A stretch of DNA of 64,000 nt from the NCBI RefSeq assembly GCF_018502625.1, contig NZ_CP075566.1, forward strand, positions 3,458,001 to 3,522,000, written 5' to 3'. Below, piece after piece: positions 49,053 through 50,215 of the stretch. Every line of letters starts with the position of its first letter. Position 1 is the stretch's first letter. The notes under the pieces were generated by a model that saw only the letters and a list, made by a program, of their open reading frames with translations, did not search any database and was not told the origin of the DNA. This DNA is from Pseudomonas hormoni (GTDB lineage Bacteria; Pseudomonadota; Gammaproteobacteria; Pseudomonadales; Pseudomonadaceae). The translations under genes and the position numbers were made by a program.

Positions 49053-49079
49053 TGTGTCTAGATCTAGGAATAAGCTCTG

Positions 49080-49250
49080 GGGTGAGAGGGGTGAATGGCA
49101 AGCTGTGAGTCCGCGGTGCTTAAAGCACGTGTGGGAGCCAAGCTGCCATTCACCTTTCCACTCTGGCCCATAAGCCCGAACAGTTGGACGAGCAGCCACT
49201 CGAAATCACAAGCGTGGGCAAAGCCAGAGCACTCTCACTCCTGAGTGTAA
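49080..49250 (+). ncRNA. Predicted bridge RNA of the IS110 element
   Basis: Two stem-bounded loops are visible. The target loop is closed by GGTGAATGGCA (49090-49100) and TGCCATTCACC (49144-49154); it carries AGTCCGC (49108-49114), like the REP left flank AGCCCGC, and TGTGGGAGC (49130-49138), complementary to the REP GCTCCCACA. The donor loop, closed by CTCTGGC (49161-49167) and GCCAGAG (49223-49229), carries ACAGTTG (49180-49186), equal to the element's right end, and CACAAGC (49207-49213), complementary to GCTTGTG at its left end. Confidence 0.85.
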
Positions 49251-49262
49251 GAGGGTTTTGCC

Positions 49263-50180
49263 ATGATTTCCTGGGTCGGCATCGATATCTCCAAATCAAA
49301 CCTCGTTGTTTGGGTTCAACCAGACGGTGAAGGTTTTGAGCTTTCAAACACCTCAGAAGGCTGTGTTGAGCTTCTTCAGCGCTTGAGCCAGTACGAGGTT
49401 GGCCGAGTTCTGCTGGAGGCCACGGGAGGCTACGAACGCAAGGTCATGGCCGCATTGCTAGGTGCCAACTTCAATGTCCTCAGGATCAATCCTCGCCGGG
49501 CCAGGGCTTTCGCCGTGGCGATGGGCAAAAATGCCAAGACCGATCTGATCGATGCAGCTGTGTTGGCCGATTTCGCCGAGGTCTTGAAGATGGACGGCGA
49601 CAAGGTCATTTCGCCTGAGCGTGAAGCGTTGCGCGAGCTGGTTCAGCAACGCGAGCACTTCGTACAGCAACGGGACGACAATAAGCGCCGGCTTCAGCAG
49701 GCTCAGCTACCCGCTGTTGTGGCGGCAATCAAAGGCCATATTCATTATCTGCAAGTTCAGATCAAGCAGCTCGATAAAACCATCCACCAGAGCATGCACG
49801 ACCTGGACGCAGAAAAAACCGAGCGGCTCATCTCTGTTAAAGGTATCGGCACGGTCGCCACTGCCAGTTTGCTGGTTTACCTGCCCGAATTGGGCAAGCT
49901 CGACCGTCGCCAGGTCGCCGCACTGGCAGGAATTGCACCCTGCAACGATGACAGCGGCAATCACAGCGGGAAACGCCAAATCTATGGAGGAAGAGCCCGT
50001 GTGAGGCGTGCGCTTTACATGTCCTGCTGGGTAGTGATCCGCTATCAAGCTGACTTTAAAGCACGCTATGACGCTCTTCGGGCGCGAGGCAAGAGCGCGA
50101 AGGTCGCGCTCATCGCCTGCATGCGAATATTACTGATCAGACTGAATGCCATGCTGAGAGACGGCACCGAATGGCGCTGA
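49263..50180 (+). CDS. IS110-family transposase (RuvC-like plus Ser-type)
   Basis: A 305-residue DEDD transposase. N-terminal D and E are in [11 protein letters not shown] and [10 protein letters not shown], with [13 protein letters not shown] giving the last two acidic residues; the C-terminal domain has [19 protein letters not shown] and the likely serine in [13 protein letters not shown] lies eight bases before ATG 49263. It recombines DNA guided by the bridge RNA in its leader. Related to elements known to insert in Pseudomonas REPs. Confidence 0.95.
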
Positions 50181-50204
50181 CGAATGGCAGGGTGAAGACA
50201 GTTG

Positions 50205-50215
50205 CTCCCACAAGG
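50205..50215. repeat. Right remainder of the split REP
   Basis: CTCCCACAAGGG from the core CT onward; joined to 48966-49052 it would restore one REP. Confidence 0.75.

Follow-up and report, generated by a model that had tools for sequence, protein, structure and literature searches.

The window analyzed here is a stretch of 64,000 nucleotides from the Pseudomonas hormoni genome, which comprises 6.48 Mb in a single contig. At 49053-50204 of the window lies an insertion element that splits a REP sequence, and the surrounding features are as follows.

48969-48991, minus strand: intact inverted REP partner to the left of the split REP; an exact unoccupied target in the opposite orientation, with AAGCCCGCTCCCACA at 48969-48983 (sequence)
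49036-49052, plus strand: left half of the split REP, TCGCGGGCAAGCCCG, with the first CT core at 49051-49052 (AAGCCCG-CT junction in all seven full copies)
49053-50204, plus strand: IS110-group element, 1152 bp between two CT cores (sequence and genomic copies)
49263-50180, plus strand: IS110 recombinase gene, 305 aa (DEDD_Tnp_IS110 and Transposase_20 domains; D8, E52, D94, D97, S231)
50205-50212, plus strand: second CT core at 50205-50206, with the right REP half CCCACA (sequence and copy junctions)

The original prediction held that the element splits a REP at a CT core, and CT is indeed present at both 49051-49052 and 50205-50206. The range it gave, 49053-50206, contains the whole element, whose ends read TGTGTCTAG...GACAGTTG, but takes in one extra CT core.

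The recombinase scores above the cut-off for both Pfam PF01548 and PF02371, and its relatives of solved structure are ISCro4 (E 3.2e-34) and IS621. DEDD and serine catalytic residues are named in the published description of IS621 (PMC11208158); their counterparts here are D8, E52, D94, D97 and S231, which we located from motifs and from the printed ISCro4 alignment. Among named relatives, those closest to the gene come from Pseudomonas, and the 120 homologues listed are called, where a name is given, either 'transposase' or 'IS110 family transposase'.

Leader fold and guide sequences

The non-coding ends of the element measure 210 nt before the start codon and 24 nt after the stop codon. The left end contains a leader that resembles a bridge RNA, with the parts listed below; the coordinates of the two arms were converted by hand from alignment columns.

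49078-49241, plus strand: bridge-RNA-like leader (predicted fold, and match to covariance model R1, which was built from 11 leaders, this element's among them)
49089-49155, plus strand: predicted target-binding arm, stem 49089-49104 with 49141-49155, whose internal loop holds both target guides (consensus fold)
49106-49114, plus strand: left target guide TGAGTCCGC, with the core match AGTCCGC at 49108-49114 (REP complementarity; covariation)
49130-49138, plus strand: right target guide TGTGGGAGC, complement of GCTCCCACA (REP complementarity; covariation)
49161-49229, plus strand: predicted donor-binding arm, stem 49161-49166 with 49224-49229, whose loop holds both donor guides (consensus fold)
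49180-49186, plus strand: left donor guide ACAGTTG, equal to the element's right end (sequence match)
49207-49213, plus strand: right donor guide CACAAGC, complementary to the GCTTGTG of the left junction (sequence match)

The four guide matches originally described are present at the places given for them, in the right order and in the right loops, and sequence and fold agree that all four guide roles of an IS621-type bridge RNA can be read here. The sole mismatch of the left target guide, AGTCCGC versus AGCCCGC, amounts to a U:G wobble against the bottom strand. The minimum free energy calculated for 49080-49240 is -75.5 kcal/mol, and the fold includes both expected arms.

The consensus of 11 related leaders has 50 pairs, with 96.9% of the pair cells paired, and 7 of the 50 pairs have changed on both sides. 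We counted 15 cells changed on both sides, compared with a mean of 5.0 in shuffles, and none of 500 shuffles has as many; the count of further pair types in the same 11-leader consensus does not rise above that of the shuffles (196/500). When the partners are slid by 1-3 columns, pairing falls to 35-46%, a control that favours the structure because the consensus was derived from the same 11 sequences. A conserved stem had been expected at 49090-49154, and the target-arm stem is kept among the related leaders, 7 of its 15 pairs being invariant and 4 having changed on both sides. No promoter-like site passed a scan of 48950-49400, which represents the inserted form and not the circle junction.

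Target sites and guide-target covariation

The genome carries seven full copies of the element, 99-100% identical to one another, and four right-end pieces. In all seven full copies the left junction reads GGGCAAGCCCG-CT-TGTGTC and the right one GACAGTTG-CT-CCCACA, and no copy lies at a site that fails to match the target guides, since every one interrupts AAGCCCG-CT-CCCACA. A left AAGCCCG-CT and a right CT-CCCAC were likewise observed at all eight loci of P. laurylsulfatiphila AP3_16, at the single Pseudomonas sp. TH10 locus and at all three loci of genome G010; two of these 12 loci in other genomes (L044 and L021) read CCCACC on the right side.

Free GCNNGCTCCCACA sites number 676 in the genome, approximately one per 9.6 kb (reversed control, 6), and 191 of them have the full target AAGCCCGCTCCCACA. 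The AAGCCCG-CT-CCCACA class makes up approximately 29% of such REP ends, so that if the left half were irrelevant, seven of seven copies would fall in this class with a probability of (198/683)^7, p ~2e-4. We used the wider class GCNNGCTCCCACA because there are only 16 AAGCTCGCTCCCACA sites, compared with 191, and for this reason a contrast between AAGCC and AAGCT REPs as a test of the left guide was dropped. An earlier figure of one REP about every 5 kb proved too generous, given this genomic density and the four REP copies within 3 mismatches of TCGCGGGCAAGCCCGCTCCCACA that the window contains besides the split one.

The view that the target guide accounts for insertion into REPs is borne out by the seven matching copies and also by relatives, whose guides co-vary with their targets. 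Several elements with 50-58% protein identity have different targets and correspondingly altered guides. On the left side, the guide of the G018 element reads ATTCGC for the target GAATTCGC, and guide and target are the same in G320 (AGGTCCGC), G394 (GGGCCGC), G438 (GGCCCGC) and G514 (GCCCC). On the right side, elements whose target reads GCTCCTAC and not GCTCCCAC have the guide GTAGGAGC and not GTGGGAGC (G127, G438, G320 and G394), and the right guide tracks CCCAC, CCTAC and GAATT. An element in G307, which belongs to the window's family, and several in G560's family lie instead at sites that read AACGCC or AACACC, then CT, then GAATT or GAGTT and that we take, by eye, to resemble integron attC sites. 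Their guides read AACGCC or AACACC, and AATTCAGC. The loci with these guides are L116, L136, L214, L216, L218, L221 and L239, and the repeat shared by target and element is exactly CT in L116, L216, L218 and L221, where CT is preceded by C on the target side and by G on the element side.

For 24 elements, the fit of left guide to left target scores 136.5 against a permuted mean of 96.0, and none of 200,000 permutations is as good; this and the following permutation values overstate independence, as the elements are related, and the loop windows were set by eye. An element's own left target ranks first for 11 of the 24, and another element's target scores higher for the other 13. The left fit is poor for four: L107 (4.0, rank 11/23), L227 (4.0, rank 5/24), L228 (3.0, rank 16) and L229 (3.0, rank 21). 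The guide of L241 is one base off its target (AACGCC versus AACACC), and L112 is a leader without a gene beside it. A smaller set of 21 elements with 19 distinct left guides, to which L108, L220 and L241 were added to make the 24, scores 120 against a permuted mean of 83.5 (0/200,000). The corresponding values for right guide and right target are 3/100,000 for 18 elements and 51/100,000 for the 11 with distinct left guides. These tests cover elements with readable junctions (unlike those at contig ends, such as L086 and L104), with a donor guide found by fixed string (which nine loci lack: L217, L219, L223, L233, L234, L236, L240, L224 and L225) and with untruncated leaders (L222, L114, L115, L117, L123 and L129 being truncated), each element being counted once regardless of extra copies.

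This covariation bears on the alternative that the recombinase itself reads the REP, as sequence or as hairpin, and that the leader loops have captured REP-like sequence. We regard that alternative as improbable. Guides and targets within one element do share a phylogeny, and most of the targets read are halves of palindromic REPs, but the matches sit in loops and are complementary to one strand on one side and to the other strand on the other, a requirement of IS621; the guide follows changes of target (ATTCGC in G018, GGGCCGC in G394, AGGTCCGC in G320, AACGCC/AACACC in G895 and G920); and the donor guides match the element's ends, not REPs. Each element's protein differs too, so the comparison alone leaves room for a share of the protein in target choice. 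That the four guide matches arose by chance in a GC-rich hairpin is scarcely credible, because the ordered four-guide score of 28.0 is reached by none of 3000 dinucleotide shuffles and by none of 1288 other window stretches and, although the best shuffle (26.5, within 1.5 points of the observed score) and the best stretch (26.0) leave this test alone only moderately clear of chance, the covariation of guide and target contradicts such a reading.

Proposed mechanism and known relatives

Taken together, these data indicate that the element is very probably an IS110-group, IS621-type insertion sequence with a REP-directed bridge RNA. It encodes a DEDD RuvC-like domain and a Tnp domain with the predicted catalytic serine; its left non-coding end is longer than the right and contains the guide RNA predicted by the R1 match; its two loops, as judged by sequence and predicted fold, carry guides complementary to opposite strands; and its full copies, seven of seven, share a fixed dinucleotide core and one sequence-specific target. 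The guide RNA that IS1111-group elements, which are also marked by long subterminal inverted repeats, have at their right end was not found, as judged on the 24-nt right end, which is too short for one of that type.

Given the mechanism of IS621, we infer a similar process for this element, including transcription of the leader, formation of an RNP, a circular intermediate, catalysis and the use of the guides in transposition. The leader would be transcribed, most likely from the excised circle, to yield the bridge RNA. One loop would pair with the two REP halves around the CT core and the other with the element's ends as joined in the circle, after which the DEDD/serine recombinase would exchange strands at CT and insert the circle in one orientation. 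This mechanism is already known from IS621, and a predicted bridge RNA has been published for ISPpu10 (PMC11208160); the present element adds a well-supported new example.

IS621 of E. coli is described as an IS110-group element with a RuvC-like DEDD domain, a Tnp serine and a two-arm guide RNA in a long left end (PMC11208160, PMC11208158). According to these descriptions, our element has in common with it the domains, the long left end, the two-arm guide RNA (predicted here), the CT core and a REP target. It differs in its REP sequence and its guides, and the two proteins match at E 9.5e-32. ISPpu9 and ISPpu10 of P. putida are reported to target REPs at a single cutting position and with a repeat of 2 bp (PMC1525189), and ISPpu9 to have a long structured leader (PMC8450116); the likeness to these two elements in REP target, predicted bridge RNA and long leader rests on the published descriptions. 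ISPpu9 copies often have an extra downstream segment, ssr9, for which the 24-nt right end of our element has no room. Orphan copies of ssr9 are described as flanked by the A and B boxes of the ISPpu9 ends, as complementary to the antisense sRNA Asr9 and, apparently, as lying outside REPs (PMC8450116). As an idea only, these orphans may be non-autonomous elements with their own, differently targeted bridge RNA. The IS1111-group seekRNA elements ISPa11 and ISKpn4 are reported to have RNA-guided DEDD transposases, with ISPa11 targeting REPs (PMC11187229). Their guide RNA is described as lying downstream of the gene, whereas the leader here lies upstream.

The family to which the element belongs would form a natural retargeting series, in which related recombinases follow the REP dialect of the host through guide changes of approximately 5-8 nt; we found no description of such a series in the titles and abstract openings of the papers listed by our searches. 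Its natural guide/target pairs, with their tolerated wobble and mismatches, should be useful for bridge recombination work.

The sX15 family and solo right ends

The strand opposite to the leader matches a known RNA family.

49076-49239, minus strand: match to Rfam RF02234, sX15, at 59.4 bits (gathering 55)

sX15 reportedly came to light as a Xanthomonas transcript. Matches to it at E <=0.01 occur in 12 of 18 IS110 loci, three of them above gathering, and all 12 are antisense to the IS110 gene. In a sample of the class, sX15 was detected in 2 of 229 genomes (G000 and G560), and in G560's family in 26 of 149, with 16 above the cut-off. The 30 sX15 loci in these 26 genomes have an IS110 gene on the opposite strand in 22 cases, on the same strand in none, and within the stretch viewed no such gene in eight; sX15 as an independent gene is thus unsupported. 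Judged from its sequence matches, Rfam sX15 corresponds to IS110 bridge-RNA leaders read on the opposite strand; recognizing this would correct its annotation and tie it to the ISPpu9 antisense sRNA. The loci concerned are the one in the window, L136 and L214-L242. The papers found on sX15 and Xanthomonas do not, by title and abstract opening, treat a link to IS110 leaders.

An antisense transcript of the present element is putative: the complement of a hairpin folds similarly, and the scan of 48950-49400 gave no promoter-like site. For ISPpu9, the antisense sRNA Asr9 over the leader is reported to raise tnp expression and transposition (PMC8450116). We tentatively suggest, while thinking it rather unlikely, that IS110 elements are widely subject to a conserved layer of control by RNA antisense to the bridge RNA, of which Asr9 and sX15 are two sightings. 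If so, antisense RNA pairing along the guide loops could set when target search is allowed. Among the papers listed by a search for bridge RNA with antisense RNA, titles and abstract openings yielded nothing on antisense control of IS110 elements.

The four right-end pieces in the P. hormoni genome (L008, L009, L010 and L011) all continue with CTCCCACA, and two of them, although 97-98% identical to the ends of the full copies, are already short. Other genomes of the genus have at least 19 loci (among L049-L075) with a right end of 33-152 bp and the rest absent in the stretch viewed, and one more piece, of 24 bp, runs into a contig end. The right flank was read at 16 of the 19 (all except L060, L066 and L071) and is CTCCCAC in 11, one change away from it in four and different in L055. 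A search for left ends found at least seven comparable pieces, 38-264 bp long. No more than three candidates per genome were scored in either search, which makes the counts lower bounds and the ratio of right to left ends rough.

We considered solo right ends as products of guided crossover and rejected this, as their inner breakpoints (1003-1122 of 1154 elsewhere, 1092-1113 here) are not at the CT core. They may instead result from ordinary decay. L008 and L009 are the two of the four own-genome loci at which relatives were compared. In several of these relatives the place is taken by two inverted REPs, and the solo piece stands where they have the left REP together with the right REP's left half; in others the spacer is shorter and lacks the REP pair. 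Genome G270 contains a 33-bp right-end piece three times, two of them 406 bp apart, and L062 and L074 of this genome also have upstream sequence in common.
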